Origin: Actinomadura luteofluorescens
GTDB lineage: Bacteria; Actinomycetota; Actinomycetes; Streptosporangiales; Streptosporangiaceae
Length of the DNA stretch: 64,000 bases
Direction: 5' to 3'
Assembly: GCF_013409365.1 (NCBI RefSeq)
Contig: NZ_JACCBA010000001.1
Location: forward strand, 8,494,001 to 8,558,000
The number at the start of each line of letters is the position of its first letter. Within the stretch, counting starts at the first letter, position 1. Both the position numbers and the translations under genes were made by a program. Under the pieces are notes generated by a model, which was not told the origin of the DNA, did no database searches, and saw nothing but the letters and a program-made list of their open reading frames with translations. Shown here piece by piece: positions 8,854 through 40,431 of the stretch.

Positions 8854-8987
8854 GTTCGTCGATGAGCCAAGCCCGGACGTGCGCTACCTCGCCCTGCAAG
8901 ACCTGGAACTACCCCTGTCATGCCTTCAGCAGCTCGCCGTCGCTGCCGAGCCCTTCCTGCGCCGCGGGGTCGCTCGTCACCCCAACC
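8838..8987 (+). pseudogene. LRV (leucine-rich variant) repeat protein fragment
   Basis: About 48 codons encode LRTFVDEPSPDVRYLALQDL followed by LQQLAVAAEPFLRRGVARHP, matching LRV/HEAT-like repeats in which VR and HP recur. The frame runs directly into the tRNA-like repeat at 8985 and is lost there, so the gene was probably cut by recombination at that site. Confidence 0.5.
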
Positions 8988-9030
8988 GAAGAGGCCACTG
9001 GTTCGAACCCAGTATCGCCCACCCCAAGTT
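8985..9030 (+). repeat. tRNA-Val 3'-end direct repeat, copy 1 (attachment-site scar)
   Basis: The segment contains a complete T arm (ACTGG TTCGAAC CCAGT), the acceptor 3' strand ATCGCCC and the end ACC, preceded by CCGAAGAGGCC. No 5' half of a tRNA is present. The same sequence recurs at 31082 and 40351 in the same orientation. The roughly 150 bp after this copy also resemble the bases after copy 3. Confidence 0.75.
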
Positions 9031-9225
9031 CCCGCAGGTCAGAGCGTCGTCAACGGCGCGATCTCGTGTGTTCCAATGAGCGCTTCGTAGTCTGGGGAGC
9101 CAGTTTCGGGAGCCACCGAGCGCTTCGCAGATTCCCGAAGCGCTCACCCAGACCGTCGATCATCGTGACTGTGTCGCCCTGGTCGGCCGAGTTCGGCGGC
9201 GAAAGCTGCACTGGCCTCCTTGAGA

Positions 9226-9360
9226 ACCTCGTCCGGAGTCGGTGGAGACGGTCCTGCTCAAGCGGCTGTATGTGCTGGTGTTCAACGAGCACGGCCGCCG
9301 GCAGGCTGCGTTTGGCCGGAGGGACCGCGCACCCGACCGGAGCCTGGGGCGGGTGTAGCA
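9226..9360 (+). pseudogene. Integrase-core transposase fragment, frameshifted
   Basis: One frame reads VETVLLKRLYVLVFNEHGRR and the next continues LRLAGGTAHPTGAWGG. Together these match the conserved integrase-core block of rve-type transposases (LYVLF..E, then HLAGVTAHPTGAW). Only about 45 codons remain. It lies just downstream of the copy 1 attachment scar. Confidence 0.55.
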
Positions 9361-9466
9361 GGCCCCGATCGCATCGGGGAGCCACCGTTGCCAGCCGTAG
9401 GCGCTTCGCTGTCATCGGGCGGTATCGAGTGCGCGGGTCGGTGGCGTGGTCTGGTCGGTTGCCGCG

Positions 9467-11003
9467 TCAGGGCGTGAGCAGGGCGGTGGGCTGGCCCATC
9501 AGGCCGACAACGGCCTCGCCGATCGCCGCGGCGAGTTGCGGGGCGTGCTCTGTGGGAAGTGCGCCCGCGTTGATCCGCAGGTGGCGCTGGTGGCCGGGGG
9601 ACAGGAAGAAGGGCTGCCCGGCTGCCAGCAAGAACCCTCGTTGCGCCGTGGCTTCTACCACCCGATCGGCATCACAACCACCGGGGAGCGTGACCCAGAC
9701 GTGCAGACCGTCGGTGTCGTACTCGGGGACGAACAGGCCGGTCTGCTGGGAGGCGCTGGCCTGCCGGAGGGCCTCGCGGACGGCGGCCCCGGCGGTGCGC
9801 GTACTCGGTGCGCGCCTCCGTGAGAAGTTCGTCGAGGCGGGGGTCGGTGAGCGTCGCCGCAAGGACGCGCTGGGACGTCCGGGACGTCCATCCGTCGGCG
9901 AAGGACTTGGCCAGCGTGAGCGGATGGCGGATCGGCTGCTTGGCGAGGGCCACCGCCAGTCGCATGTCAGGGGCGATGGACTTGGAGAATGAGCGGAGGT
10001 ACACGACGCGGTCCCGTAGCCGGGGCTCGCTGTACAGCGAGCCTGGTCGCAGGGTCGCGGCCTCGGCGAACTGGTCGTCCTCGATGATCCAGACGTCGGG
10101 ATGGGGCGCGAGGGCGTCTGCCAGCGCGCGTCGGCGTTGCGCCGTCCAGCAGCAGCCGGTCGGGCTGTGGGCGCGCGGGGTGAACAGCACGGCCGAGACA
10201 CCCGCGTCGACGGCAGCGAGCAGCCCCTCGACGGTGACCCCCGCCTCGTCCAGCGGCATCGGGACGAGCCCCAGTCCGTGGAATTCGAGGGTGTCCATGG
10301 CGGTCTGGTAACCGGGCTCCTCGACGCCCACAAGGACGGTCTCGCCAGGGGAGCGACGTTGCAGCAGCATGGCGAGCAGCGCCAGGAACTGCTGCGTGGA
10401 ACTGGCGACGAGCATGTCGTCGGCATCGGTCTCGATCCCGTCGTGGGCAAGCCGTTTGGCGAGGGCATCAGCCAGTTCCGGCTCGGTGCTCAGCGTCGCC
10501 GGATACTCCAGGTCCTGCGCCTGCAACCGGGCGGCGACGTCCCGGTAGGCGCGCTTGACGACGGCCAAGGGAAGCAGCCGAGGGTCCGGGCCGCCGCGTG
10601 TGAGGTCGCGCGCGGTGGGATGGCTGTGCTTCAGGCGCGCCTCGGTCTGGGCGAGGACCTGGCGCCGCCAGGCGCTTCCCCCGCGAACGGGGCCCACGGC
10701 CTCACCGCCGCTGGAGGGCGGTGCCGTCTGCGGAAGGTCGGGAGCCTCGCTGACGAACGTGCCGCGGCCGGCCTCCCCGTGGACCAGACCGAGGTCGCCG
10801 AGCCGGGCGTAGACGCTCATGACGGTCGTGACACTGAGGCCCAGGTCGGTGGCCAGTTGCCGGACGGACGGCAACCGCTCACCGGGGCGCAACTCGCCTG
10901 ACCGGATCGCTTGGGACATCTCATGCGCCACTCGCTCGTAGAGCGGACGCCCGTTGCCCGATGAGTCTCGCAGGGTCGCCATCCGCCGTTGCACCTCAAG
11001 CAT
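9467..11003 (-). pseudogene. MocR-type (GntR + aminotransferase) regulator, frameshifted
   Basis: From ATG 11003 (or GTG 11006) an N-terminal GntR winged helix (RPLYERVAHEMSQAIRSGEL, then RLPSVRQLATDLGLSVTTVM) is followed by a class I aminotransferase-like domain. PLP-site landmarks are present: PRAHSPTGCC, IIEDDQFAE and the Lys region YLRSFSKSIAPDMRL. Near 9800 the frame breaks. The remaining C-terminus (GLFVPEYDTDGLHVWVTLPG to the stop at 9467) lies in another frame, so a single-base indel or sequencing error separates them. MocR proteins usually control divergent genes, and here the CapA-like gene and the 12.6 kb operon lie opposite. Confidence 0.8.
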
Positions 11004-11006
11004 CAC

Positions 11007-11335
11007 GCATACACTTTACCAGTACGCCTAACTGATGGCGGGCGAACCAGGATGTACCAGCGCCCGATGCCTGCTGAAAGCTCCCTTGCGCCAAGGCCTT
11101 TCGCGGCCTCGGGTCTTCCCTGGGGTGTGCGGTGTCCGGCCGGGGACTGTGGACGGCAAGAGGTCGACATCCCCGCCGATTGTACTCCTAACGTATTGAC
11201 TGTGTTAGGTGAGCGTGACACCGTGACGTCCGTTCTCACCGCCGTACCGTCTGGTCCGGCATGGCCGGACATGACCGCCGTTTCGACGGTGCGCGCCGGT
11301 ACGGCGACCATCCGCAGTGCAGGAAGGCGCCGCCC
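11007..11335. promoter_or_regulatory. Divergent intergenic region with hexamer palindrome
   Basis: The region separates the MocR-type gene from the CapA-like gene. At 11187-11209 a perfect inverted hexamer pair, CCTAAC-N11-GTTAGG, flanks a TTGACT that could be a -35 element. This is a plausible operator and promoter for the plus strand. A GCATACA motif just upstream of the MocR start also occurs at 12491-12497 ahead of the transporter operon. No gene is seen. Confidence 0.45.
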
Positions 11336-12394
11336 GTGATCTCCCATCTGACCGCCACCGGTGACATCGTTCTCACCAAGTCCCTGGCCGAGGTCCCCAC
11401 CGACCCCGGGTTCTCCGCGCTCCAGGAGGTGCTCGGAGCATCGTCCTGCGTGCTGTCGAGCGTTGAGCTGCCCTTCTCCGACCGGGGTCACCCCTCCGAC
11501 CGGATCCTCAACTTCCGAGCGCGTCCGGAACTCGTCCATGAGCTGGCCGCCTTCAACCTGAAGGTGGCGACGCTCGCCAACAACCACAGTTCCGACTACG
11601 GCTGGGACGCCCTGGACGACACCGTGCGGAGACTGCGCTCGGCGGGAGTGACGGCGATCGGCGCGGGAGAGGATCTCGCGGCCGCCGAGGAGGCCGTCGT
11701 CCTGGAGATCGCCGGCCGTCGCGTGGGGATCCTCGCCTGGTCCTGCCTGCTGCCGCTGGGGGCCGCGGCCGGTCCGTCCAAGCCGGGCATCTCTCCCGTG
11801 CACGTGGAGACCGAGTGGGTGGTGAACGGGGAGTTCCAGTTGGAGGAACCGGGCGTGCCCCCGGTCATCCGCACTCGGGTACGCGCGGCCGACCACGAGC
11901 GGGTCATCGGCCGCGTGCGGGAAGTTCGGGAGCGCGTCGACGTCGTGGTGGTGACCGTGCACTGGGGATTCGGGTTCGGCAGTGCGCGCGCCGAGTACCA
12001 GCGGGTGTTCGGACACGCGCTCGTGGACGCGGGGGCCGACCTCGTCCTCGGCCACCACGTGCACGCCCCGCAGGGGGTGGAGGTGTACCGGGACCGGGTC
12101 ATCGTGTACAGCCCGGGCAACTTCGTCGCCCAGCAGCCGAGGGAGAACATCACCCCGGAGATCGAGGAGATCTACGACGCGTTCAGCCGGGACGCCTTCA
12201 TCACGGTCGTCGACCTGGCCGGCGGAGACGTCCCGCAGGTGTCACTGGTGCCGATCATGACGGCCGACCACGGGCTCCCCGTCCTGGCGGATCCGGAGAA
12301 CGCCCGCCGTATCGCGGACCGGCTGGCCGTCGAATCGGCGGATCTCGACACCGTCGTCGCGTTCGACGGCGCTCGCGTGACCGTCACCGGTTGA
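11336..12394 (+). CDS. CapA-family metallophosphatase-like protein
   Basis: GTG 11336 follows AGGAAGG at about 8 bases. The longer upstream frame has no ribosome site. The 352-residue protein has no signal peptide and shows the CapA (PGA_cap) fold motifs: an N-terminal TATGDIVLTKSL, LANNHSSDYGWD near residue 80, VTVHWGFGFG near residue 205 and LGHHVHAPQ near residue 240, the metal-binding positions of the calcineurin-like fold. CapA/PgsA proteins are tied to poly-gamma-glutamate synthesis, but cytosolic actinomycete members next to catabolic genes have no proven role. A 12-bp stem terminator follows, so it is a separate unit from the operon at 12.6 kb. Confidence 0.8.
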   Translation: MISHLTATGDIVLTKSLAEVPTDPGFSALQEVLGASSCVLSSVELPFSDRGHPSDRILNFRARPELVHELAAFNLKVATLANNHSSDYGWDALDDTVRRLRSAGVTAIGAGEDLAAAEEAVVLEIAGRRVGILAWSCLLPLGAAAGPSKPGISPVHVETEWVVNGEFQLEEPGVPPVIRTRVRAADHERVIGRVREVRERVDVVVVTVHWGFGFGSARAEYQRVFGHALVDAGADLVLGHHVHAPQGVEVYRDRVIVYSPGNFVAQQPRENITPEIEEIYDAFSRDAFITVVDLAGGDVPQVSLVPIMTADHGLPVLADPENARRIADRLAVESADLDTVVAFDGARVTVTG

Positions 12395-12402
12395 ATCCCG
12401 CC

Positions 12403-12440
12403 GGCCGTGCCCGCCGGTGCAACGCCCCGCGGGCACGGCC
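12403..12440 (+). terminator. Hairpin terminator after the CapA-like gene
   Basis: GGCCGTGCCCGC (12403-12414) and GCGGGCACGGCC (12429-12440) form a perfect 12-bp stem with a 14-base loop, starting 9 bases after the stop codon. There is no long T run, as is usual for actinomycete terminators. Confidence 0.75.
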
Positions 12441-12606
12441 TCTCCGTCTGCCACAGCCAGGTGTTCCGGAGCAAGCGTACTGAGTGTTATGCATACATCC
12501 TCTAGACACCAAGATGACAGCCGTGTACCTTCGCAGAACCGCCGGGCGCAGGACCCGGCGGACGGAGGACCGTGTCGGTGAACGGGCCGACAGAACGGAG
12601 CCTGTT

Positions 12607-13638
12607 ATGCGTCTCGGAACAGGGCCGCTGAACCGCCGTCGTTTCCTCGTCGCCGCGAGCCTGGCATCGGCTCTCGCGCTCACCGGATGCGGGACCGGAG
12701 ACCAGCGGAAAGGCGGAGACGAGAAGTCGGTGGCGCTCGTCACCCCGCAGAAGGCCGGGGACGGAGGGCCGACCGACAACCTGATCGCCGGGCTGAACAC
12801 GCTGAAGGCGGCCGGCTACACCACCCGCCACGTGGCCGCACCCGACCCCTCATCGCACGAGTCGACGCTGCGCAGCCTCGCCCAGTCGGGGACGCCGGTG
12901 ATCGTCGTGTCGTTCTCGGACTTCACGCAGGTACTCAAGACCGTGGCGCCCGACTTCCCCAAGACCAGGTTCGTGCACATCTACTCCGACCCGTACAAGC
13001 CCGAGCTGCCGAACGTCCAGACGGTCTCGTTCGACACGCAGGGCCCCTCGTACCTGGCCGGCGTGCTGGCCGCCACCGTGTCGAAGACGGGAGTCGTGGG
13101 CTTCATCGGCGGAACCGCGATCCCCTCGCTGAACGCCGACTATCACGCCTTCGAGGCGGGGGCGAAGGCCACCCGCGCCGGCATCGCCGTCAAGAGCGCG
13201 TTCGTCGGGTCGTTCGGCGACCCGGTGAAGGGCCAGCAGATCGCCCAGACCATGTTCAACAACAAGGTCGACGTGGTCCTCGCCTACGCGGGCGGCTCCT
13301 CGGTCGGCGTCGTGAAGGCCGCCGACCAGGCCAAGGCCTTCGTCATCTACGACAACGCGGAAAGCGCCCAGACCGCCACCAGCGTGATCGCGGTCGCGTC
13401 GCAGCACTACGGCGCCACCATGGCCAAGCGGGTGCTCACCATCGCCGACGGGACCTGGAAGCCCGGTGGCAGCGAGGCGGGTCTCGCCGACGACGGCACC
13501 TTCCTGGAACGCGCCAAGATGTTCCGGCCCGGCGCCGGGGCGCCGGACCTGGACTCGGCGTTCCAGAAGGTCGGCGAGACCAAGCAGAAGATCATCGACG
13601 GTTCCGTCGATGTGCCCGTCAACACCGGCAACGTGTGA
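12607..13638 (+). CDS. BMP-family ABC transporter substrate-binding lipoprotein
   Basis: ATG 12607 has GGAG 6 bases upstream. The 343-residue product has a twin-arginine-like N-terminus (NRRRFLVAA) and a lipobox ending LALTGC, with lipidated Cys28. The mature part has the BMP/Med (PnrA-like) fold: SLAQSGTPVIVVSFSDF, GVVGFIGGTAIPSLNADYHA and VVLAYAGGSSVG. Family members bind purine nucleosides or related ligands. The ATPase and two permeases follow directly, completing an importer. It is the first gene of the operon that runs to 30163. The ligand may not be a nucleoside, since the downstream enzymes include no nucleoside hydrolase or phosphorylase. Confidence 0.85.
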   Translation: MRLGTGPLNRRRFLVAASLASALALTGCGTGDQRKGGDEKSVALVTPQKAGDGGPTDNLIAGLNTLKAAGYTTRHVAAPDPSSHESTLRSLAQSGTPVIVVSFSDFTQVLKTVAPDFPKTRFVHIYSDPYKPELPNVQTVSFDTQGPSYLAGVLAATVSKTGVVGFIGGTAIPSLNADYHAFEAGAKATRAGIAVKSAFVGSFGDPVKGQQIAQTMFNNKVDVVLAYAGGSSVGVVKAADQAKAFVIYDNAESAQTATSVIAVASQHYGATMAKRVLTIADGTWKPGGSEAGLADDGTFLERAKMFRPGAGAPDLDSAFQKVGETKQKIIDGSVDVPVNTGNV

Positions 13639-13645
13639 GCGAGCC

Positions 13646-15211
13646 ATGCCAGCCCGACCACACGAGAGAACCGGACCCGCCGCGGCGGGCGGTCCGCAAC
13701 GCGCCGGAGCACCCGTCACCTGCCAGGACGTCTCGGTACTTTTCGGTGACTTCCGTGCCCTCGACGGAGTCAGCGGGACCTTCACACCGGGCAAGGTGCA
13801 CGCCATCGTCGGCCAGAACGGCGCCGGCAAGACCACCTTCGCGCGGGTGCTGGCCGGGCTGGTCGAACCCTCCGGTGGCACCGTCCAGGTGGGAGAGCAC
13901 CTGCTCGCCGGAGGGAACGTCGCCGAGTCACGCAGACAGGGCGTGGAGCTGGTCCATCAGCACTTCGCGCTGCCCTCGGACTTCACCGTCGCCCAGGCAC
14001 TGGAACTGTTCAACGACGAGCACCGCCCCCTCGGCGGCTTCTCCAGGGCAGGGTTGCACCGCAGGGCGCGGACACTCCTGGAGGACGGGGGAGCCGCCGT
14101 CGCCCCGGACGCACTGATCGGCAGGCTGCCGATCGAGACGATGCAGGCGGTCGAGATCGCCCGCGCCCTCGCCTCCGCCCCCCGCGTGCTCGTCCTGGAC
14201 GAACCCACGGCGGTTCTGCCGCCGCCCGCGATGCGCGGGCTGTTCGACCGGCTGCGCGACCTGGCCGTCGCGGGCCTGTGCGTGATCGTGGTGCTGCACA
14301 AGCTGGACGAGGTGTTCGCGGTCGCCGACACCGTCACCGCGCTGCGGGCCGGCAGGCTCGTCCTGGAGCCGACGCCCATCGGTGACCTGGAGCCGGCTGA
14401 CGTCTCGCGGGCCATCATCGGCGACGCATCGGTCAAGGAGGTGCCGGCGGTCGCGAAGCCCGCGCCGGATGCTCCGGTGGTGCTGAGCACGACCCGGCTG
14501 ACCTCGCGGTCCGGGTCGCACGACGCGGCCGCGACCGACGTGTCGCTGGAGGTACGCGCGGGCGAGATCGTGGGGATCGCCGGCGTCGAGGGCAACGGGC
14601 AGCGCAGCCTCGTCGAGGCGCTCGTCGGGATGGCGCCGCTGCGCGGCGGGACGGTGTCCCTGGCCGGCTCCGACATCTCGGGGGCCTCGGTACGGCGGCG
14701 CCGCGACCGCGGCCTGCGCATCATCCCTTTCGAACGCAACGTGGAAGGGGTCAGCCTCAGCAGCGCCCTGTGGGAGAACCACGCCGCCCCGCGGCACGCC
14801 GGGGACGGGTTGATGCTCGATCCGAGAGCCCTGCGGGAACGGTGCCGGGAGGCGCTGGACCGCTGGCGGGTCGCCTACCGGACCGAGACCCAGCGGGCCG
14901 GAGACCTGTCCGGCGGCAACGTCCAGAAGACCGTCCTGGCGCGCGAGATCACCGGTGACGTGCGGGTTCTCATCGCCGCGCACCCGACACGCGGGCTGGA
15001 CATCGCCGCGGCCGGTGACGTGCGGGCGGCGCTGGTGGACGCCGCGGCGTCCGGCGCCGCCGTCCTCATCGTCAGCGCGGACCTGGAGGAGATGTTCGAG
15101 GTGTGTCACCGCGTACTGGTGATGTTCGCCGGGCGCGTGGTGGCCGAGTTCGACCGGCCGTTCGATCTGGATCGAGTGGGCGGCGCCATGGTGAGGGGTG
15201 AGGCCGCGTGA
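13646..15211 (+). CDS. ABC transporter ATP-binding protein (double ATPase, nucleoside/sugar type)
   Basis: 521 residues with two ATPase domains in tandem. The first (about 30-250) has a full Walker A GQNGAGKTT and Walker B VLVLDEPTAVLPP. The second (about 275-510) has GVEGNGQRSL in place of Walker A and DLSGGNVQKTVLAREI as its signature. Loss of the second P-loop lysine is normal for CUT2/BMP-type importers. ATG 13646 lies 8 bases after the lipoprotein gene stop, and the end overlaps the permease start by 4 bases. It powers import of the BMP-bound ligand. Confidence 0.9.
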   Translation: MPARPHERTGPAAAGGPQRAGAPVTCQDVSVLFGDFRALDGVSGTFTPGKVHAIVGQNGAGKTTFARVLAGLVEPSGGTVQVGEHLLAGGNVAESRRQGVELVHQHFALPSDFTVAQALELFNDEHRPLGGFSRAGLHRRARTLLEDGGAAVAPDALIGRLPIETMQAVEIARALASAPRVLVLDEPTAVLPPPAMRGLFDRLRDLAVAGLCVIVVLHKLDEVFAVADTVTALRAGRLVLEPTPIGDLEPADVSRAIIGDASVKEVPAVAKPAPDAPVVLSTTRLTSRSGSHDAAATDVSLEVRAGEIVGIAGVEGNGQRSLVEALVGMAPLRGGTVSLAGSDISGASVRRRRDRGLRIIPFERNVEGVSLSSALWENHAAPRHAGDGLMLDPRALRERCREALDRWRVAYRTETQRAGDLSGGNVQKTVLAREITGDVRVLIAAHPTRGLDIAAAGDVRAALVDAAASGAAVLIVSADLEEMFEVCHRVLVMFAGRVVAEFDRPFDLDRVGGAMVRGEAA

Positions 15212-16311
15212 GGTTTCGGCCAAGGCCGGCCGCGGCCCGGCCCGTCGCGGTCATCGGTGTGTCCCTGCTGCTGGTCCTCGGCATCTTCGCCGTGTCCGGC
15301 TATGACGTGGAGGCGATCATCGCGGGAACGGTCGACGGCAGCGTCGGCTCGCCGGCCGCATGGACGCAGACGATCCGCTGGGCCATTCCCCTGCTCATCA
15401 TCGCGCTCGGAGTCGGGCTCGCCTTCCAGGCCGGCTACTTCAACATCGGCGCCCAGGGACAGATGTACGTCGGGGCGATCGGCTCGCTGGCCCTCGGCCT
15501 GGTGTGGCGGGACGGTCCCGCGCTCGTGGTGCTCCCGTGCGCCTTCGCGGTCGGGATCGCGCTCGGGGCGCTGTGGTCGCTGTTGCCCGGGCTGCTGCGG
15601 ACGCGGCTCGGCGCCGACGAGGTCGTCACCAGCCTGATGATGAACTTCATCGCCGTGCTGGTCCTGGAGTGGGTCTGCACCGGCCCGCTGAAGAGCCGCG
15701 ACGGCACGGGCCAGGCGGCCACGACCGATCGGCTGCCGGAGGCCTTCCGGCTCAGCGACGGCAGCGGAGTCTCGCCCGCCCTGCTGATCCTGTGCGCCCT
15801 CCTCGTGGCGGGCGCCGTGGTCCTGACCGGCCGCACGCGGCTGGGCCTGGAGATCCGCCTCGTGGGACGCAACCCGGTGATGGCGCAGTGGATGGGAATC
15901 CGTGCCTCCCGGGTCGGCCTGGTGGTCTTCGCACTGAGCGGTGCGGCGGCCGGGCTCGCGGGCGCCGTCGAGGCCTACGGCCCGTCGGGCAGCCTGCGGG
16001 TCGGGTTCTCGCCGATGGTCGGCTTCATGGCGGTCATCGTGGCGCTGGTCGGCACGTTCGGTCCGCTCCGCACGCTGCTGGCCGCGGTGTTCTTCGGTGC
16101 GCTGCGCGCCGCCACGATCTACCTGCCGGTCGTGAGCGACCTGCCGCAGGCGGGTCTCGACATGCTCAACGGGATGGTCGCCTTGTGGATCACGGTCTCC
16201 ACGGTGCCCGCCCTGCTGAGACGCCGGCGAACGCGGGCCGCGGCCCGGGCCGGCGATCCGCCGGGTGGGCCCGCCCACCGCGATCAGGAGGTGGTGAACT
16301 CCCGTGGTTGA
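15208..16311 (+). CDS. ABC transporter permease (BMP-type, first subunit)
   Basis: GTG 15208 overlaps the ATPase stop (GTGA). The 367-residue membrane protein has about 8-10 hydrophobic segments. It carries family blocks such as GLAFQAGYFNIGAQGQMYVG near residue 70, LGADEVVTSLMMNFIAVLVL near residue 135, and GRNPVMAQWMGI. This is the BPD_transp_2 permease of BmpC/YufP/NupP type. It overlaps the second permease by 8 bases and forms the heteromeric channel with it. Confidence 0.88.
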   Translation: MRFRPRPAAARPVAVIGVSLLLVLGIFAVSGYDVEAIIAGTVDGSVGSPAAWTQTIRWAIPLLIIALGVGLAFQAGYFNIGAQGQMYVGAIGSLALGLVWRDGPALVVLPCAFAVGIALGALWSLLPGLLRTRLGADEVVTSLMMNFIAVLVLEWVCTGPLKSRDGTGQAATTDRLPEAFRLSDGSGVSPALLILCALLVAGAVVLTGRTRLGLEIRLVGRNPVMAQWMGIRASRVGLVVFALSGAAAGLAGAVEAYGPSGSLRVGFSPMVGFMAVIVALVGTFGPLRTLLAAVFFGALRAATIYLPVVSDLPQAGLDMLNGMVALWITVSTVPALLRRRRTRAAARAGDPPGGPAHRDQEVVNSRG

Positions 16312-18438: not shown

Positions 18439-18505
18439 TGGACATCTCGCCCGGACGACGCGGTGCGGGCGGCCCGTGGAGAAGATCGAAGGAAAGGACG
18501 GGGAT

Positions 18506-20574: not shown

Positions 20575-20621
20575 CCGGGCGGGGAGGCAGCCCGTCCCAC
20601 ACCCACTTGGAGGTAACGGCA

Positions 20622-31124: not shown

Positions 31125-31137
31125 GTTTTGCCAGGTC

Positions 31138-31170
31138 AGAGGCTTGCTCGGACGATGAGCAGGCCTCTTT
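31138..31170 (+). terminator. Hairpin terminator downstream of tRNA-like copy 2
   Basis: AGAGGCTTGCTC (31138-31149) pairs with GAGCAGGCCTCT (31157-31168) with one mismatch and a 7-base loop, followed by a short T run. Its position 13 bases after the tRNA 3' end is what a native tRNA gene would have. Confidence 0.65.
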
Positions 31171-32169: not shown

Positions 32170-32285
32170 ATCCCTACGGCTTCAGTGCGTGCGGCACCGC
32201 TGCCAGCCCGCGCCGGGCAAGGTGGAGCCGATCGCCTCGACCAGGCCGGCGTGGACGTCGGAGATCACCAGTTGGACGTAGGAAT
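32170..32285 (-). pseudogene. IS256-family transposase fragment
   Basis: On the minus strand a frame reads VQLVISDVHAGLVEAIGSTL followed by PGAGWQRCRTH, the conserved DDE-region block of IS256 Mutator-type transposases. Only about 38 codons remain. It joins directly to the broken EamA-type transporter frame, so an IS256 element once inserted there. Confidence 0.65.
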
Positions 32286-32706
32286 TCTTGCCAAAGTCAT
32301 GCAGGCGGTGATCTCGCTTCTCTTGATACTGGACATCATTTTCATTACGACCAGGAAGTTCGTCGCCAAAACCGCGACGACAACGAATCCCCAGTAGTTG
32401 ATCTCGCCTTCCCAGGAGGGCGTGAGCACGATCACACCGCTGAAACCCGCCGCCGGCCACGCCAGGTCCCGCCATCGGCGGGACCTCAGGATCTCGATGG
32501 TGACGAGCAGCATCGGGCCTCCGACATAGAATGCCGTCAGCACGAGCCCGAAGGGCAGCATGCGAATGGCATACTGGAAGGAGATGAATCCCACGGTAAG
32601 GCCGAGTCCCAGAATCAGCGCCGATCGCCAGACCGGCCAACCCGCCCGCAAGGGGCGGCCTGTACTGTACTTGATCAACAATGGTGCGAAGCCGACTGAG
32701 CGCTGG
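32286..32706 (-). pseudogene. EamA/DMT-type transporter fragment
   Basis: The minus strand encodes about 140 residues with four hydrophobic segments: GLGLTVGFISFQYAIRMLPF, LVLTAFYVGGPMLLVTIEIL, GVIVLTPSWEG and WGFVVVAVLATNFLVVMKM. This is the RhtA-like EamA pattern. The start and the rest of the protein are missing, and the frame ends in the IS256 scrap. No function is expected. Confidence 0.6.
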
Positions 32707-32710
32707 GTAC

Positions 32711-33686
32711 TCAAGGCTTGATGCTGAACGGGCCGAGTGAGTTGTAGTCGAGCCGCAGTGACTCGGCCATCGCCCACGCGTTGGGCAGCGTGAACACGTC
32801 CGCGCCGCCCAGGCGGTCCAGCCACCGGGGGACGATGTCGTCGGCCGCCTGTGCCGACACCGCGTCCAGGTAGGCGCGGAAGACGGCCCAGGCGTTCTCG
32901 GGGTCGACCGGCGCCATGACCGCTTCGAGGTCCACGCTCGAGAGCGCCGCCTCGGTGGTGGCGCGCAGGTCGTTCATGTACTCGATCTGGGTGCGCACGT
33001 CCTCCGGCGTCCCCGGGCGGTTGACATGGCCGCCGACGAGCTGGTCGAAGTCGTATCCGAGGACCTTGTCGTACAGGGCGAACACCCCGGGCAGGTCGGC
33101 CGACAGCGCCAGGTTCGAGAACGGCACCCAGCCGGGGAAGATGACGTCGACCAGCATCACGACCCGCTGGTTCGGGAGATAGACCAGACTGTTCCCCTCG
33201 GTGTGGTTGGGGCCGGGGTAGTCCAGATGGATGACATGGGCCCCGGCCCTCGATGGTGAGGGTGTGGTCGAAGACCTCGGTGGGGAGGGGCCGATCCGGG
33301 TCGGCCAGAGCCTCCAGCCGCTGAGCGACGATGCGCTGGGCGTAGCGCGGGACGGAGTCGGGGTAGATCGACATGCCGCCCACATGGTCGCCGTGCTCGT
33401 GGCTGTAGATCACGTGTGTCATGGGCTTGTCGGTCACCCGCTTGATGGCGCGCAGGATGTCGTGCCCAAGCGTCGGGGGCGAGTCGACCACGATGACCCC
33501 TTCGTCATGGACGACGAACATGTTCCCGTACTGGCCGTCGCTGAGCCAGAAGACGCCGTCGGCGATCTCCTCCATGACATATCCGGCGTCCGGGATATCA
33601 GGGCCCCTCGCGTTCCGGGGTAGGGGGGCGGTCGGCCGCTCCCTCCTCCGCTGAGCCGATTCAGAGAAGCGGGACATCGTCTTCAT
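32711..33686 (-). pseudogene. Metallo-beta-lactamase-fold hydrolase with one frameshift
   Basis: From ATG 33686 (AGGA upstream) the first frame gives GVFWLSDGQYGNMFVVHDEG, VVDSPPTLGHDIL and the zinc motif THVIYSHEHGDHVGGM (HxHxDH). It loses sense near 33240 at a GGGG run. The second frame resumes with AHVIHLDYPGPNHTEGNSLV (next His ligand), VVMLVDVIFPGWVPF and VGGHVNRPGTPEDV, ending at 32711. Removing one G would restore a protein of about 325 residues. It is therefore either a recent pseudogene or a sequencing error in a homopolymer. The start overlaps the VOC gene by 26 bases. Confidence 0.75.
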
Positions 33687-34152
33687 CGTCAGTCCTCCGT
33701 CGTCGTCCGGTTCTTGTCGCACCACCCTTTCCGGTGACCGCGTAGGAACTGAACCAAAAATCCTCGTCCGGATCGTCGAAGGAGGCGAACGAGCCGTAGC
33801 TCGCGCGCTCGGGGTCCGGCCCGGCCACCCGGGCCCGGGTCCCGGCGTGGTGGAAGACGCCGCCGGCGTCGTGGAATACCTCGCTGACTTTCACGCCGCG
33901 CCGGACCATTTCGGCTCGCGCGGCCTCGATGTCGTCCACCACCAGGTGCAGGCCGTGCGCCGAGCCCGGTGCATCCGAGGTGACGCCGGTTCCGAAGATG
34001 ATGGAGCACGGGGACCCCGGCGGCGTCATCTGCACCACCCGGAAGTCCTCGCCGGTGGTGACGTCGGCGTCCTCCCGCCAGCCGAGCCCCTTGTAGAAGT
34101 CCTTCGCGCGGTCGGCGTCGGCGACGGGCACCACGACGACCTCCAGTTTCAT
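33661..34152 (-). CDS. VOC superfamily protein, 163 aa, unusual C-terminus
   Basis: ATG 34152 follows GGGAGG. The N-terminal VVVVPVADADRAKDFYKGLG and PPGSPCSIIFGTG, then GLHLVVDDIEAARAEMVRRG, are typical of VOC lyases of the lactoylglutathione-lyase-like group. After FASFDDPDEDFW the sequence departs from the usual GNSW-LQE ending and runs into a basic and acidic tail (TRTGRRRRTDDEDD). A small indel near the 3' end has probably changed the C-terminus, so activity is doubtful. Confidence 0.7.
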   Translation of the reverse strand: MKLEVVVVPVADADRAKDFYKGLGWREDADVTTGEDFRVVQMTPPGSPCSIIFGTGVTSDAPGSAHGLHLVVDDIEAARAEMVRRGVKVSEVFHDAGGVFHHAGTRARVAGPDPERASYGSFASFDDPDEDFWFSSYAVTGKGGATRTGRRRRTDDEDDVPLL

Positions 34153-34354
34153 GTCCACGCTGCCTCCCCTCTCGCCGGGGCACCGGGCCCTGATACCCAC
34201 ACTCGCCCTGCAAGCCGCTAGAAACCGTTAATTCACGTTAAAGAACCGCAAAGCCTCGACTATAGAGATTTAGTCGGCTCGCACCCTCGATACACGCGCG
34301 AGTTGTGTGACTGGCGCCTGGTGGGAACTTTCGGGACCGGCATGATCGGCGTGA

Positions 34355-35116
34355 TCAGGTTCGGTGGATGAGCTGCTGGCCGCCGTCGATGTCGTACGTG
34401 GCGCCGGTGAGCGCGGTGTTGGCCATGAGATGCACGGCGAGGGCGGCGACGTCGGCGGGTCCGACCACGCGTTCGATCGGGAGCGTCGCGCGGAGCTGGT
34501 CGCGGCGCGCTTCGAGGTCGTCGCCGAGCAGTTCGGCCGATAGCGGGGTGTCGACGAAACCGGCCGCGATGAGGTTGACCCTGATCGGTGCGACCTCGAC
34601 CGCCAGGTTGGCGATCAGGGCGGGCAGTGCGGCGGTGCCCGCCGCGATGAGCGACAGGCCGGGCCCTCGGCTTCGGCCGCCGGTGCCGCCCATGAACAGC
34701 AGGGTGCCGCCGGGGCGCACCCGGCCGACGGCATGCTGGGCGACGGCGACGGCCAGCCACACGTGTCCGTCGAAATCGCGATGCGCCCGCTCGCGGTCGA
34801 GGTCGGCCAGGGGCGCGTAGTAGGGGCCACCGGCCGTGACCATCACGTGGTCGATCGTCTCGGGCAGGGTTCCGAAGAACCGCGCGAGGGCGTCCGGATC
34901 GGTCGCGTCGAAGGCCGCGCTGTCCAGCGCGCCCACGTCGGCCGCCGCCCGCTCGAGGCGGTCGGGGTCGCGGCCGGTCATGATGACGGCCGCGCCCTCG
35001 GCACGGGCGCGGCGGGCGGTCTCGAGCCCGATGCCGCCGCTGCCTCCGATCACGACGACGGTCTGCCCGGTGAGCTCGGGCGGACGCTGGGCGGCGTCGG
35101 ACGATGCGATGGTCAT
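34355..35116 (-). CDS. SDR-family oxidoreductase lacking the usual YxxxK
   Basis: 253 residues from ATG 35116. Cofactor motif VVVIGGSGGIGLETARRA (TGxxxGxG-like) near residue 20, GRDPDRLERAAADV and VTAGGPYYAPLADLD are clear, as is the C-terminal GATYDIDGGQQLIHR. Where classical SDRs have YxxxK the protein reads PGLSLIAAGTAALPALIANL, so the catalytic Tyr and Lys are missing. Members of this divergent group are common in actinomycetes and may be non-classical or non-catalytic. It stands alone on the minus strand, with a short leader overlapping no gene. Confidence 0.78.
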   Translation of the reverse strand: MTIASSDAAQRPPELTGQTVVVIGGSGGIGLETARRARAEGAAVIMTGRDPDRLERAAADVGALDSAAFDATDPDALARFFGTLPETIDHVMVTAGGPYYAPLADLDRERAHRDFDGHVWLAVAVAQHAVGRVRPGGTLLFMGGTGGRSRGPGLSLIAAGTAALPALIANLAVEVAPIRVNLIAAGFVDTPLSAELLGDDLEARRDQLRATLPIERVVGPADVAALAVHLMANTALTGATYDIDGGQQLIHRT

Positions 35117-35333
35117 GATTCCTCCCGTATGCAGATCACGCGGTCAGTTCTCGGTCCGGCCGGACCACGCAGCGTTCCTTCTCTCCTTCCCGATTTCGGC
35201 GGGTCGTGCAGCATGCCCACAGCCCTTCGACCGCCGCTGCGCGGCGAGTTGCTTTTGCTCGACGGCGAGAGGACGAGCGTGTCGCTGATGGCGGACCCGC
35301 CGACGAGTCGTCCAAGCCGGTAGCCGGAGATCG

Positions 35334-35543
35334 ATGCAGGCGGGGCGACGGGAGGTTCATGCGCTTAACACCCACACGGCCGCTCAGCTCACCGTCTGGA
35401 CCACTGGCGAGACGGAACTCGACATCGCCGACCTCACCACAGGAGCCAGCACCAGTACCCACTATGAGTTCACCGACCTACAAGGCCTCGAAGCCTGCCT
35501 CGACGACCTCACCGAACATTTCAACACCCCTCCCTGCCCTTGA
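35334..35543 (+). CDS. Small hypothetical protein or fragment, 69 aa
   Basis: The frame has moderate codon bias and a balanced composition in its second half (LTVWTTGETELDIADLTTGA, then YEFTDLQGLEACLDDLTEHF), unlike the arginine-rich shadow frames around it. There is no clear ribosome site before ATG 35334. It may be a small real gene or the tail of an immunity-like protein. I do not recognise it. Confidence 0.35.
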   Translation: MQAGRREVHALNTHTAAQLTVWTTGETELDIADLTTGASTSTHYEFTDLQGLEACLDDLTEHFNTPPCP

Positions 35544-36156
35544 CGAATCTCGTACGGGTTCACATGGCCGTTCATCGTCTTCCTTGCTCTCCTCGCCATC
35601 GCGTTGGCCCTGGTGTGGGTGTCACCGCCGAGGTTGGCGCTGTTCCTGGTCGCGGGCACTGGCGTCCGCGACCAGGCTGCGCTGCAGCCTGACCATCGTG
35701 ATCTCCACCTCCGACCCGGACGATCGAGCCGGTGCTCTGGCGACATCACCGCCTGCCACACCGGCGTCTCGCTGCCGATGGTCGGTGCGAGGCTGGTGGT
35801 GCAGCACCTCAGACCCCAGGACAGGCTTCTCGTCTTCGCTCTGGCCGCGGCCTGAAAATCCTGGCGGCGGCTCCCGTCCTCGTCCGCCCGATCAAGCAAC
35901 CGGCGGCCAGGCCTGCGACGGACGAGAACCCGATGATGCCGGTGTTTCGGCGTCGACACCGAGGGCATCTCCGGCGAACCTTCCGACCGGCCGGAGTACG
36001 GGGCGCCGGCGAACGGTCTCAGGCGATCCGCAGACGACCATGCCGCAGACCGGTCGAGGCCAGGATGCCCAGCGCCTTACCGACCGTTCTCGCGCCTCAT
36101 TCGGCGATCCGGACGCCGACCGACCGCCGCTGCGGGAAATCGACAAGGAGCGTTTC
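35544..36156. other. Upstream region of the enoyl-CoA hydratase gene, with a membrane-protein scrap
   Basis: At about 35562-35672 the plus strand encodes WPFIVFLALLAIALALVWVS and more hydrophobic residues before losing sense, so a membrane-protein fragment is likely. The remainder has no coherent frame. AAGGAG at 36145-36150 serves the following gene. Confidence 0.4.
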
Positions 36157-36999
36157 ATGAGTACCGCAGAACAGTTCCACGTAAGTAAGGTGACCCGATC
36201 CTACTGGCGGGTGACTTTCGACAATGGTCCGGTGAACCTGATGGATCCGGACACCATCGAGCAGCTTGGCGAGCTCATCGGGCGTATCGAGGATGAGCCG
36301 GAACTCACGGTCGTGGTCTTCCGCAGTGACAAGCCGGGTTACTTCATCGCGCACTGGGACTTCCTGTCCGACTCCGCCCGTGTGGCCGGGATGCCGCCTG
36401 GACCAACGGGCCTCCACCCGTACCTGGACAACTTCGTCCGGTTGAGCAAGCTGCCCGTGGCCACGATCTCGGAGATCCGCGGACGCACCCGCGGCGCGGG
36501 CAGCGAATTCGTGCTCTCAACGGACATCCGCTTCGCCTCCGAAAGCGCTGTCCTGGGCCAGTTCGAAGTCGGCGTGGGCAGCGTTCCGGGAGGTGGCGCC
36601 ATGTCGCGGCTGGGGCGCCTGGTCGGTCGCGGGCGCGCACTGGAGATCCTGCTCGGCGGCGATGACATGCCGGCCGGCCTGGCAGCCGAGTACGGCTACG
36701 TGAATCGAGTTGTCCCGGACGCCGAGATCGAGGCTTTCACCGACGCGTTCGCACGCCGTATCGCGGGCTTCGACAGGGTGGCCGTCGCCGGCATCAAGGG
36801 ACTTGTCGATGCGGCCACCCTGCCGGCGAACGAGGAGTTCGCGCCTGGCCTGCAGGCGTACTTCGCCACCGCGGGCCGCCCGGAGAACCGGCCGTTCGTC
36901 CAGCTACTGTTCGACAACGGGCTCCAACAACCCGACGGCATCGAGACCGACCTCGGTAAGGCGATTGGGACGCTCCGCCAGAACTTCGAACGACCATGA
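36157..36999 (+). CDS. Enoyl-CoA hydratase/isomerase family protein
   Basis: ATG 36157 has AAGGAG 6 bases upstream. A much longer upstream frame is not coding. The 280-residue protein shows crotonase features: VTFDNGPVNLMDPDTIEQLG near residue 20, IRGRTRGAGSEFVLSTDIRF near residue 107 (oxyanion-hole region), and GVGSVPGGGAMSRLGRLVGR near residue 136. The usual catalytic Glu pair is not obvious, so it may be an isomerase or hydrolase variant. It is a single gene. The adjoining muconolactone-isomerase-like gene converges on it. Confidence 0.85.
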   Translation: MSTAEQFHVSKVTRSYWRVTFDNGPVNLMDPDTIEQLGELIGRIEDEPELTVVVFRSDKPGYFIAHWDFLSDSARVAGMPPGPTGLHPYLDNFVRLSKLPVATISEIRGRTRGAGSEFVLSTDIRFASESAVLGQFEVGVGSVPGGGAMSRLGRLVGRGRALEILLGGDDMPAGLAAEYGYVNRVVPDAEIEAFTDAFARRIAGFDRVAVAGIKGLVDAATLPANEEFAPGLQAYFATAGRPENRPFVQLLFDNGLQQPDGIETDLGKAIGTLRQNFERP

Positions 37000-37354
37000 C
37001 GCCGGAGCGCGAACGCCCAGCGCAGCGTCCCCGAAGGGCGTATGAACCATCGGCTGCTGTCCTGATCGTCGAATCCGCGCGCATTACGGCTGGCTCCATC
37101 ATCGCGGTCCCGGCCTTAGGCATGTCTCACGGACGAGATCGGCCGCAGACGGGGGGCCGGGTACGACAGCCCGATTCGGTGGGGCGCCCGAGTGCGGCGT
37201 GGGCGCCGCCCCCCGGGCGCCTCTGGCGCCTCGCTGCACCGCGCTCCTCGGTCGCGGCCGCCGGCGTTGAATCGCCGAATAGGGAGTGCCATCAGCCAAG
37301 ATCGGTAAATGGCGGGAAGGCCGGCGTTTCTGGGAAGGCCCTGGCCCGGGGTGC
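37000..37354. other. Convergent intergenic region, no gene seen
   Basis: It lies between the stops of two convergent genes. GC-rich partial inverted repeats (around 37195-37235) could act as a bidirectional terminator, but no perfect stem stands out. Confidence 0.35.
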
Positions 37355-37951
37355 TCACGGGTCGCTGGGGTGGCGCGTCAGGGGCACCGTCTCTGTGGTG
37401 AACCAGGCGGCCAGCGGGAGCGAGCGCAGAATTTCCTGCATCAGCTTGGCGTCGGCGGCCTGAAAGAGGCCGAGGTTGCGGCCCTCGCCGGGCAGGCTCC
37501 ACAGACGGAGGAGGCGGCCTTCGGCGGCCAGTTCACGCGCGCGGGCGGCCTCGCGGGCGAACATCTCGTCGCGGGCCTGCGGGGTCGTCGCGTCCGGCAC
37601 CTCGACGGTGAACGTGACCAGGTACTCGCCCCCAGCCGCTGCGAGCGGGACCTTGCCGCGCCCCGGGTCGTTGGGGTGGGGGTCCAGCGCGGTGATCTGG
37701 TCGGTGCGCCAGACGCGCAGCGGCATCGCGGCGAGCGTCCGCTCGAGGTCGTCTGGGCCGTCGGCGGTGAACAGCCCGATCGTGCGCCACTCTCCCGGCC
37801 CCAGCGGCGGCCGCCACAGGCGCAGCACCCGCCCCTGGGCGGCCAGGACGCTGGTGTTGGCGGCTTCGCGCGCCCGGATGTCGTCCACCTCGCGCGCCGG
37901 GGTTCCGTCCGGGACACGGGTGGTCATGGTGACCAGGTACTCGTGCTTCAC
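37355..37951 (-). CDS. Tandem muconolactone delta-isomerase-like protein
   Basis: GTG 37951 follows AAGGAGG. The 198-residue protein is two homologous halves of about 95 residues. The first is EYLVTMTTRVPDG, REAANTSVLAAQGRVLRLWR, then GLFTADGPDDLERTLAAMPL. The second is EYLVTFTVEVPDA, REAARARELAAEGRLLRLWS, then GLFQAADAKLMQEILRSLPL. Each half matches the muconolactone isomerase (MIase) fold, normally a 90-95 residue subunit of a homodecamer. The fusion probably makes a pseudo-dimer. The substrate is unknown and no other beta-ketoadipate genes are near. Confidence 0.8.
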   Translation of the reverse strand: MKHEYLVTMTTRVPDGTPAREVDDIRAREAANTSVLAAQGRVLRLWRPPLGPGEWRTIGLFTADGPDDLERTLAAMPLRVWRTDQITALDPHPNDPGRGKVPLAAAGGEYLVTFTVEVPDATTPQARDEMFAREAARARELAAEGRLLRLWSLPGEGRNLGLFQAADAKLMQEILRSLPLAAWFTTETVPLTRHPSDP

Positions 37952-38040
37952 GATCTGCCTCCTTGGACATCGGCGTATTCAGCATCATGCCCGCGGGCGC
38001 GTCCGCTGGCGCCTACGGACGAGCACAGGAGCCGCAGGTC

Positions 38041-38121
38041 ATGGACATGAAGCTCGATTTCGTCGTGGTGCCGGTCGCGGACGTCGACAAGGCTAAGGAC
38101 TTCTACACGGCACCGCGGCGA
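38041..38121 (+). pseudogene. VOC gene, N-terminal fragment
   Basis: ATG 38041 or 38047 begins MKLDFVVVPVADVDKAKDFY, nearly the same as the N-terminus of the VOC protein at 34152, and is then lost after about 26 codons. The IS110-like region starts about 70 bp later, so its insertion or a linked deletion removed the rest. Confidence 0.65.
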
Positions 38122-38188
38122 CGCTCACAGCGGTAGCCGTCTCACCCCGGCTGGCGACCGAGCCCGAGATACGGGTCTGTCCAGTCAA

Positions 38189-38231
38189 CGGCACCTCTCT
38201 GTGTCAAGCGGCGGCGAGCAGAGAGGTATCC
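38189..38231 (+). repeat. 43-bp inverted repeat, left copy, hairpin-forming
   Basis: The 43 bases are the exact reverse complement of 39365-39407. Each copy can itself fold, because ACCTCTCTG and CAGAGAGGT pair across a 17-base loop. The left copy includes the last codons and stop of the IS110-type transposase (DTDTSLLAAA). Confidence 0.75.
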
Positions 38232-39110
38232 GTGTCTCGGATCATGGTCCGGTAGACGACGTCGCAGAGCCGTCGTTTCAGGCCGCGCAGGGCTTCTTTG
38301 TGACTCTTCCCCTCGGCGCCTTTGCGCTGGTAGAAGTCCTGACCGGCGGTCTGGCGACGGATCTGGGTGATGGCCATCAACGCCTGCGGTGCGCGCCAGG
38401 ATTCTGGCCGCCAGCAAGTCGCCGATGCCGTGCAGCTCGGTGAGTGTGGTGCCGGAATCACCTACCGCCGCGGAGATCTGGTCGGCGACCCCGGTGATCC
38501 GCCGGTCCAGCCTCCGGATCTCGGCGACCAGGCCCACCGCCAGGGCGCGCAGCGTGCAGCCCAGGACGGTCTGAGGACGCACTCCGCGCAAGGCCTTGGC
38601 GGCGATGTCGGCGGTCAGCTTGCGCGGCAGGCCGGCCGGGAGGAGCTTGGTGAGCAGGGCGTGCAGCCGGTTGATGGTCTGGGTGCGGGCGCGCACCAGG
38701 TCCTCGCGGTGCTCGATCAGAGCGCGCAGCGCGGTGATGGCCTCGTCCAGGCGGGCCACGTGCAGTCCGGTGGCGGTCTGTGCGGCGATGCCGACCGACA
38801 GGGGCGTCGGCTTCGTCGGTCTTGCGGCCGTGGCCGGTGGACAGCAGCCGGACGCGTCGGGCGAGCTTGGCCGGCACGTCGAGCACGGCGATGCCGTCGT
38901 CTGCCAACCGTGCCGTGAGCGGTGCGCCGAGACCGCGGGCGCCTTCAACGGCCCAGCGGGCCCGCGGCCAGGCACAGGCGAATCGCTGCAAGCTGCCGGT
39001 AGCCGGCCTTGCTGACCGGCACCCGCACAGCGCCCAAAGATTGCAGCCGGGCGTCGACCGCCACCGCGGTCCAGGAGGCCTTGTGCGGATCGACCGCGAT
39101 AACGACCTGG
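38206..39110 (-). pseudogene. IS110-family transposase, multiply frameshifted
   Basis: Conserved blocks occur in order on the minus strand but in three frames: the DEDD start VVIAVDPHKASWTAVAVDAR, VEGARGLGAPLTARLADDGI, LDVPAKLARRVRLLSTGHGR KTDE, HREDLVRARTQTINRLHALL, LHGIGDLLAARILARTAG and the tail CDVVYRTMIRDTDTSLLAAA. This gives about 300 codons of an IS110-type (Piv/DEDD) transposase with several indels and an internal deletion, so it is inactive. The element is bounded by the 43-bp inverted repeats, unusual for a family that normally lacks terminal repeats. Confidence 0.75.
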
Positions 39111-39364
39111 ATGTCGGCGAGTTGGAGAGACGACGGCGTGGCGCTCCTCGGCGGTCCGGGGCAGGGGGGTGACAGGCGAGGAGGGCAAACCAACTTGGGG
39201 CGGTGCAGACCTCTCTTGAGCCACTCTCGCCGGCGGCTGTGGCCGGCACGCACGCCGTTAAATGAGCCAGCCTGAGGGGCGGCAGGTGTAACTAGAGCGA
39301 CCCCGGCCAAAGCCTTGTTGATCTTGGCTGCAGACCGCGATCAACGCCACTGATCCAACAAGTT

Positions 39365-39407
39365 GGATACCTCTCTGCTCGCCGCCGCTTGACACAGAGA
39401 GGTGCCG
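39365..39407 (-). repeat. 43-bp inverted repeat, right copy, hairpin-forming
   Basis: Exact reverse complement of 38189-38231. It lies about 250 bp upstream of the transposase start, so the tail of a second, oppositely oriented copy of the same element may be present here. Confidence 0.75.
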
Positions 39408-40350
39408 ATAACCTTACAGTCCCCGAGATACCACAGCAGCAGCGCCATCAGCGCGGTGAGCCGACCATAGGTGCTGCCTCGCCCGGGCGGCCTGCCGGGT
39501 GCAGGTTGGGCGTCTGGATATCCGAAGGAGCACAGAAGGCGCAGGTGGTGGACATGAACCATGCCATGGCATGTCCATCCCCTATTCACCGGAGTTGCGC
39601 AAGCGTGCAGTCCGCATGGTGACCGAGGTCCCCGACCTATCCCAGCGAGTGGTCGGCGATGAGGGTCGTTGCAGCCAGGCTGGGGTGCCTCGACCGAGAC
39701 GGTTCGCAGGGCGTCGAGCCGAGGCCGATGCCGGCGCCCGGCCGAGAAACGACGTGATGGCCATCCCGTCCAGGTTGAGACGGCGCGCCGTGACCGGGCA
39801 GCGCCTCGGCTCCTTCCAGAAGCCTGTGGGACCGTCCTGCCCCTCTCAAGAGATGTCCTTGGGCATACAGACGTTGACGAACTGCCGAAGGTGGTGTGCC
39901 GGCCGGTGTAGAACGTCAGGCAGAGGAACAGTTCCAAAGTGTCAAGGTGACCGGCAGCGGAATTATTTGACCGAATTTCGGAGAGGATGGTCGTTGCAAG
40001 GTGCTGGCCGCCTCGGCGGTGTCATAAGTGGCTGATCATCTACCTCCGACGTGAGCGTCGTGATCGAGCCATTATTGGCTCGCATTGATCCTCCGCCGCG
40101 CCGACGGAGAACGTTGGTCTACCTGACACCGCTGGGTGGCCATCGAGCAAGTCGGCTCGGTGGGCTGTCGCGTGAGCCATCTGGGCGGTCGGCCGCGGTG
40201 GGTCACGTACACTCGCTGGAAGCAGCGCGCTAATTACGGGAGAGCGCAACGGACCTGATCTTCCCTGAGTTGCGCTGTGGTGTGCCGAAGGACGTAACTT
40301 GACCTGCGGTGATGCCGAGAAGTCGCTTGGGTTGGGCTTGCTAGATCGTG
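39408..40350. other. Decayed mobile DNA; includes an IS3-type OrfA scrap
   Basis: At about 39566-39660 the plus strand reads IPYSPELRKRAVRMVTEVPD, the N-terminus of IS3-family OrfA proteins, and is then lost. Minus-strand pieces near 39420-39470 (LTALMALLLWYLGD) and 39740-39790 may be further transposase scraps. No intact gene is present. Confidence 0.5.
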
Positions 40351-40401
40351 TTCACACCGAAGAGGCCACTGGTTCGAACCCAGTATCGCCCACCCCAAGT
40401 T
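40351..40401 (+). repeat. tRNA-Val 3'-end direct repeat, copy 3 (attachment-site scar)
   Basis: It has the same TTCACAC anticodon loop, CGAAG, T arm and ATCGCCC acceptor strand as copy 2. After the tRNA end it shares CACCCCAAGTT with copy 1. Similarity to copy 1 continues, with gaps, for about 150 bp (for example CGCTTCGTAGTCT and TTCGCAGATTCCCGAAG). No 5' tRNA half precedes it. Confidence 0.78.
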
Positions 40402-40405
40402 CTCG

Positions 40406-40431
40406 CAGGTCAGGGCGTCGTCCCTGACCTG
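40406..40431 (+). terminator. Hairpin terminator downstream of tRNA-like copy 3
   Basis: CAGGTCAGGG (40406-40415) and CCCTGACCTG (40422-40431) form a perfect 10-bp stem with loop CGTCGT, placed about 14 bases after the tRNA 3' end as for copy 2. Confidence 0.65.

Follow-up and report, generated by a model that had tools for sequence, protein, structure and literature searches.

The repeats described here lie in a 64,000-nucleotide stretch (the window, G000:C1:8494001-8558000) of the genome of Actinomadura luteofluorescens, a soil actinomycete whose 9.62-Mb genome forms a single contig. The window contains three copies, all in one orientation, of the 41- to 46-bp 3' half of a tRNA-Val(CAC) gene. 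These copies are very probably (about 0.92) the scars of attachment (att) cores in a tandem array of islands integrated at tRNA-Val(CAC). On sequence grounds, each copy spans the tRNA from its anticodon loop to its 3' end (the start being lost in copy 1), conserved end modules of a few kinds flank most copies, and related species lack parts of the array or have them at other places. The relatives compared are of the same genus, Actinomadura.

The window copies are on the plus strand, and each is 100% identical to the matching part of the intact tRNA gene. Copy 1 (c4; window 8985..9025, genome 8502985) is 41 bp long and lacks the first five bases of the repeat, hence its anticodon loop is incomplete. 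Copy 2 (c5; window 31082..31124, genome 8525082) measures 43 bp and copy 3 (c6; window 40351..40396, genome 8534351) 46 bp. A preliminary description of the window had reported these halves, with a full CAC anticodon loop in copies 2 and 3 only. This is what was found: none of the three has a 5' half, and ARAGORN identified no tRNA in the window. The intact gene, expected to the left, is indeed present ~310 kb left of the window (G000 8183879-8183952; its core, t, is at 8183909 on the plus strand). It is adjoined by the integrase that had been anticipated there, the tyrosine recombinase IntA (8184053-8185234, minus strand; PF00589, 64.3 bits over the cut-off).

The three scars first described are real, but they are part of a larger set: genome-wide, seven same-strand copies span ~350 kb, namely t, c1 (8431511, 95.7% identity), c2 (8467569), c3 (8479040) and the three in the window. 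A 39-base pattern (<=2 mismatches) matched seven times on the plus strand and never on the minus strand, and the reversed control gave no match; no further core copy with <=2 mismatches was found in the genome. In addition, core-less junctions are located at 8453882-8454009 and 8588524-8588675. The interval from the tRNA to c1 (G000:C1:8183954-8431510) is one 247-kb piece in which no further core or end module was detected. Copies 1 and 3 share ~105 bp at 88%, far past the repeat, and copy 2 is of another type. Hairpin terminators had been proposed after copies 2 and 3. The hairpins are stable, after copy 1 as well (z of -3.9, -2.9 and -4.0), but no T-tract terminator was found on the plus strand at any of the three copies; the minus-strand scan gave a single weak match at 31346-31331.

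Across the genus, 118 copies are present in 63 of 65 genomes, and 29 of the 65 carry at least two. In one of these, G038, both copies resemble whole genes: two tRNA-length Val(CAC) matches lie 306 bp apart (G038:C118:24852-25230), an apparent whole-gene duplication. For a comparison of junctions, 71 copies were fetched, two of them duplicates, leaving 53 scars and 16 tRNA copies. Of the copies fetched, the script's pattern missed at least one that is divergent (G014:C69:34226). The block shared by these 69 copies begins at the anticodon loop and stops at the 3' end of the tRNA, with an abrupt change in both flanks. Among the scars, the share of the majority base goes up from 0.47 to 0.98 where TTCACAC, the anticodon loop, begins, and drops from 0.98 to 0.68 immediately past CGCCCAC. 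Such sharp limits are the mark of site-specific insertion.

Outside the core, modules of 130-210 bp recur at many junctions. Four types occur on the right: A (adjacent to IntA), B (adjacent to a second integrase, IntB), C and D; on the left, two modules, L1 and L2, are common besides others. From the intact gene outward, the array reads t[A]-L2 c1, c1[C]-L1 c2, c2[B]-other c3, c3[C]-broken c4, c4[C]-L1 c5, c5[D]-L2 c6 and c6[C]. In the window, all modules being on the plus strand, the 9-31 kb island opens with a C-type module (9023..9164) and closes with an L1-type module (30954..31081). A D-type module (31125..31324) and an L2-type module (40232..40350) bound the block between c5 and c6, and the next island starts with another C-type module (40394..40531). 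The left flank of c4 carries neither L1 nor L2. The D-type module includes a hairpin. A short stretch in it that resembles the core, from 31186, had been taken for a possible degraded fourth copy; it is part of the module conserved right of the core in relatives and not a separate scar. A single scan of a genome contig collection with a strict C-end pattern, from which near relatives of the window genome may have been left out, returned 10 stretches, from the species of five Actinomadura records. In a comparison aimed at recombination of the end modules independent of their cargo, module identities did not separate clearly by genome or by orthologue. Within the C modules (window 9055-9146 and others), an inverted repeat, TGAGCGCTTCG/CGAAGCGCTCA, surrounds the arm repeats and resembles the anticodon stem. 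Of 18 sequences, eight match in this dyad at all 11 bases and two at 10, the other eight being unscorable by the script.

The modules contain a putative arm repeat, GGGAGCCA, as tandem pairs at nearly fixed distances from the start of CACCGAAG: -132/-119 in L1, +108/+120 in A and +111/+124 in the C modules (+112/+125 at c1). In the window, the pairs are at 9095 and 9108, at 30954 and 30967, and at 40466 and 40479. Over 654 kb of the A. luteofluorescens genome, 33 copies are on the plus strand, 15 of which lie <=150 bp from the seven cores, and two are on the minus strand, none near a core. In the 65 genus genomes, the pattern joining core and right arm hits 17 and that of the left pair 5 (control 0); in 298 genomes of the family, the right-arm pattern hits 19, in 5 of 68 genera. 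Other motifs mark other modules: tandem TGGGAG is present in most D modules, and one TGGGAG(A/G) at -118 in many L2 modules.

The repeats follow the integrase type. In the 160 bp past the integrase C-terminus, at 30 loci from a longer list, GGGAGCCA was found beside 21 of 23 integrases nearer IntA and beside none of seven nearer IntB (Fisher 1.8e-5); tandem AGTCA showed the opposite distribution (0/23 against 4/7, p 0.0013). These loci are related, which makes both p values optimistic. A tRNA scan of 22 IntA-like loci gave six tRNA-Pro, three tRNA-Val(CAC), one Asn call and 12 without any; as the targets differ, GGGAGCCA goes with the integrase and not with one target. Of the seven loci L188, L190 and L192-L196, which hold IntA-like integrases with GGGAGCCA, six have them beside tRNA-Pro genes.

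PF00589 matches number 23 genome-wide. Between t and c6, they comprise IntA at the intact tRNA, IntB at c2 (51% identical to IntA) and three fragments at 8309092-8315023; between c4 and c6 there are none. No IntA or IntB homologue was found within 1.9 kb of 17 C-type sites. Most islands of the array appear to carry no integration enzyme themselves. An island of G059 contains an IntA fragment interrupted by a stop codon. In the plasmid and phage collections, no close IntA was identified, the best place in each of 80 and 831 records, respectively, being below 60% identity.

Relatives show pre-insertion and reordered sites. In Actinomadura sp. K4S16 (G041), the upstream flank matches that of A. 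luteofluorescens up to the tRNA (92.7%), and the intact gene is directly followed by the sequence right of c5 (857 bp, 90.8%), beginning with the D-type module; the 341 kb between t and c5 are therefore absent at that place. In G056, the intact gene leads into 8479040-8490215 (96.7%) and 8491130-8495113 (92.2%), which belong to the island that reaches into the window from its left end, and then into the c5 junction with its L1 module (8524953-8525702, 87.1%). The stretch missing there, 8495114-8524952, takes in c4 with ~7.9 kb to its left, and the 9-31 kb block. Window 16800-19800 is unmatched anywhere in G056 at E 1e-50, although a 389-bp piece of the missing stretch has a match at another place in the G056 array. 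In A. mexicana DSM 44485 (G055), the c4 block (21,550 bp, 94.0%) begins at its core, has lost its right end module and lies right of a c5-like D-type junction, not left of one. The island at the intact tRNA of G059 has a 98% copy ~110 kb out in G055 and a 93% copy ~207 kb out in G063. G028 carries 44.5 kb from the tRNA to a second core, followed by a match to the apparently empty G043.

The preliminary description had proposed successive insertions at one tRNA-Val gene, and the pre-insertion junctions and differently ordered arrays of relatives support this; no 5' half adjoins the window copies, and relatives show variant junctions. Its division of the window into separate blocks is borne out for 9-31 kb by G056, with the ~7.9 kb mentioned, but not exactly for the decayed 31-40 kb block (c5-c6), for which no exact empty site was found in relatives. 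The right end of the island starting at c6 was not found either. Nor was the right border of the whole island region located: the downstream sequence of G043 matched A. luteofluorescens only weakly, and G055, G056 and G059 did not become syntenic again up to 8.81 Mb at the thresholds used.

The array probably grew as follows. Crossover by a tyrosine recombinase would take place within the intact gene's anticodon loop; the element coming in would restore the tRNA 3' half, and the displaced half would mark the distal junction. With every further insertion next to the tRNA, older islands would be pushed outward, so that array position would give a rough age order, blurred by deletions. C...L1 islands, such as that at window 9-31 kb, would have no integrase of their own and would move, or would once have moved, by means of an IntA-clade integrase that another element provides and that binds the GGGAGCCA arm repeats at both ends. 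Since GGGAGCCA occurs beside one integrase clade and not beside the other, a foreign integrase may well move such islands. That the enzyme is provided in trans to integrase-less islands through shared arm repeats is given roughly even odds, and we infer that the C...L1 islands are cargo units similar to cis-mobilizable elements (CIMEs). A more ambitious version, in which the array is a giant cassette platform whose integrase-less units with standard C...L1 ends are inserted and reshuffled in trans by any integrase that reads their arms, is doubtful. On this view, a single core would serve at least three arm codes: the IntA clade would use GGGAGCCA, the IntB clade AGTCA, and D...L2 units would carry TGGGAG(A/G).

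Several observations weigh against a tandem array of site-specifically inserted islands, or against its mobility. The junction copies were picked with a 39-base pattern ending at the last C of the block, so that identity inside it is by construction and only the block limits are informative, four bases further left and none further right. End pairing is incomplete (by hand tally, C-L1 9, C-L2 4, D-L2 6 and D-L1 0; Fisher p 0.011), IntA's own interval of 247 kb closes with L2 instead of L1, and the left flank of c4 is broken. No excised circle was observed. Among the matches listed, G055, G056, G059 and G041 have no full-length IntA homologue above ~55%, hence no present helper is seen there. 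Finally, the catabolic cluster that fills the 9-31 kb island also exists without these ends, as judged from its homology limits in four relatives (G063, G041, G047 and G045). Homology starts there at window 9453-9471, with no left end module and in unrelated flanks; it ends at 30137-30169 in three of them, and in G047 the contig ends first. In G063, the cluster runs at its right end directly into the tail of a C module.

These limits make it quite conceivable, if somewhat short of an even chance, that an unrelated event brought the cluster into an att-bounded remnant, so that 9-31 kb did not originate as one mobile unit. In G055, on the contrary, homology takes in the C module and starts at the core, which means that the unit predates the split of A. 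luteofluorescens and G055 or was exchanged whole; capture and subsequent movement as a unit do not conflict. A rival that comes close to an even bet is that once complete elements inserted site-specifically, lost their integrases and have long been immobile. It shares its origin with the array of integrated islands and differs from it solely in present mobility. The low coding share of c5-c6 (37%) and c2-c3 (47%), the core-less junctions, the stop-bearing IntA fragment of G059 and the lack of an FtsK/TraB-like gene between t and c6 all suit such decay; the 89% coding share of c4-c5, the many exact cores and arm pairs and the order varying between close species do not.

Ordinary homologous recombination between the repeated junction modules, swapping blocks with no recombinase, would find homology in them, and some junctions are plainly rearranged fossils. 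However, unrelated left flanks (tRNA 5' half, L1, L2 and others) all switch at the same anticodon-loop base, where homologous exchange would scatter the switch points, and an integrase adjoins the intact gene; this explanation is very improbable. The chance that the copies are tRNA pseudogenes from gene duplication, or fortuitous repeats, is negligible. Whole-gene duplication at this locus does occur in G038, but the window copies lack a 5' half, and the integrase, the fixed-offset arm sites, the pre-insertion junctions and the zero count of the reversed-pattern control also speak against these origins. Both were rejected, and the G041 and G056 junctions contradict them.

Among known systems, integrons, with an IntI integrase and attC cassettes, are ordered cargo arrays inserted at one end. 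The array at tRNA-Val(CAC) is analogous in being ordered and filled from one end; its units, unlike those of integrons, measure ~9-36 kb and are bounded by tRNA fragments instead of attC sites. It has the features of tRNA-gene islands: an intact target at one end with the adjoining tyrosine integrase IntA, and a displaced 3' fragment at the other. The uninterrupted site is provided by G041 for t-c5 and by G056 for t-c3. Tandem accretion is visible as stacked islands of the same orientation, whose order and content vary in relatives.

The ssrA locus of Dehalococcoides is among the closest likenesses (PMC3146451). Several islands lie there in tandem downstream of a single RNA gene and have repeats of its 3' end as their boundaries, with a catabolic operon and CRISPR modules among the cargo; 16 have an integration module and 15 do not, the latter being suggested to be cis-mobilizable. 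The differences concern the enzyme and the scale: a serine recombinase, a 20-bp repeat and ssrA within 100 kb in Dehalococcoides, against tyrosine recombinases, a 43- to 46-bp tRNA-Val half, a ~350-kb span and arm-repeat end modules shared with one integrase clade here. CIMEs are described as cargo between att sites without integration or transfer genes (PMC5704250). The 9-31 kb block has an att site at both ends (a C module and truncated core on the left, L1 and a core on the right) and no integration or transfer genes of its own among 21 of 21 called genes; given the arm-repeat association, it may be mobilisable by an outside integrase. The ICESt1-family CIMEs of Streptococcus thermophilus are likewise integrase-less, att-bounded cargo stacked at one site by site-specific accretion (PMC5704250). 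At the tRNA-Val locus, by contrast, one core seems to be common to several integrase arm specificities. Actinomycete integrative and conjugative elements (PMC3218068) also have an integrase at a tRNA gene in an actinobacterium. Unlike in these elements, no FtsK/TraB-type transfer protein was found, as FtsK_SpoIIIE (PF01580) had no match between the tRNA and c6; there is one at 8625896.

Tandem islands with integrase-less members are already known (PMC3146451, PMC5704250); the array described here is deep and has a testable arm code. No title on this locus was found among the listed matches in the Actinomadura literature, most subscription papers being outside the search. One tRNA gene carries stacked islands in many species of the genus, and its scars form a readable, if blurred, record of island arrival. 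The arm-repeat association predicts which integrase moves which integrase-less island. In addition, genes for defence, toxin-like proteins and nutrient breakdown (type III CRISPR, CBASS, RHS/HINT and catabolic clusters) now lie side by side.

The cargo of the 9-31 kb island is a catabolic gene cluster (9453..30169). A GntR-family regulator with an aminotransferase-like stretch (9672..10982, minus strand) and a PGA_cap-family protein (11336..12394, plus strand) are followed by 19 called genes on the plus strand (12607..30163). These encode a BMP-type ATP-binding cassette (ABC) transporter, UPF0261, GMC oxidoreductase, PEP_hydrolase-like, cupin and two MmgE/PrpD proteins, isochorismatase-type, NIPSNAP and Dabb proteins, an aldehyde dehydrogenase, a hydroxyisobutyrate-type dehydrogenase, an alpha/beta hydrolase, a glyoxalase-type protein and an amidohydrolase, among others. 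Genes in c4-c5 were called with the analysis's own script; all 21 of 21 were Pfam-scanned and no recombinase was found, with no PF00589 or PF01580 match. The 157-aa gene at window 20101-20574 has no Pfam or NCBIfam match, and among the NCBIfam matches listed for 10 catabolic proteins, one is above the cut-off, to a family named hypothetical protein. Six of the 65 genomes, A. luteofluorescens included, match a 3-kb piece of the cluster along its length at >=83%.

The decayed c5-c6 cargo (31325..40231) holds short-chain dehydrogenase/reductase, glyoxalase-type, enoyl-CoA hydratase and muconolactone-isomerase-type genes. Right of c6 (43124..60342), where 11 of the called genes were scanned, amidohydrolases, M20 peptidases, MmgE/PrpD and parts of a peptide-type ABC transporter are encoded. 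The right part of the c3 island (1..8984) contains the end of an RHS/PT-HINT protein (to 1650) and NucA/NucB-type and I36-inhibitor-type genes; c3-c4 encodes RHS/PT-HINT and ricin-lectin proteins, a sigma factor, an HD domain and a transposase. The RHS/PT-HINT proteins and a ricin-lectin protein of 1680 aa are located at window 1-1650 and G000:C1:8482421-8487463, and RHS/HINT proteins recur in islands of relatives, including e1 of G055 (L097:1802-7891). In c1-c2, left of the window (G000:C1:8434499-8465791; loci L011 and L012), a scan of 10 of 25 genes revealed a cyclic-oligonucleotide-based antiphage signalling system (CBASS) made up of a cyclase, a TRIP13-type ATPase and a SAVED effector. 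The same scan showed a GmrSD-type nuclease and a set of type III CRISPR proteins, as well as a transposase and a pentapeptide protein. Near-identical gene pairs are repeated in the array, at G000:C1:8204908, 8253792, 8304886, 8326629, 8428721, 8451796, 8453280, 8498122 and others; at least some are likely transposase copies.

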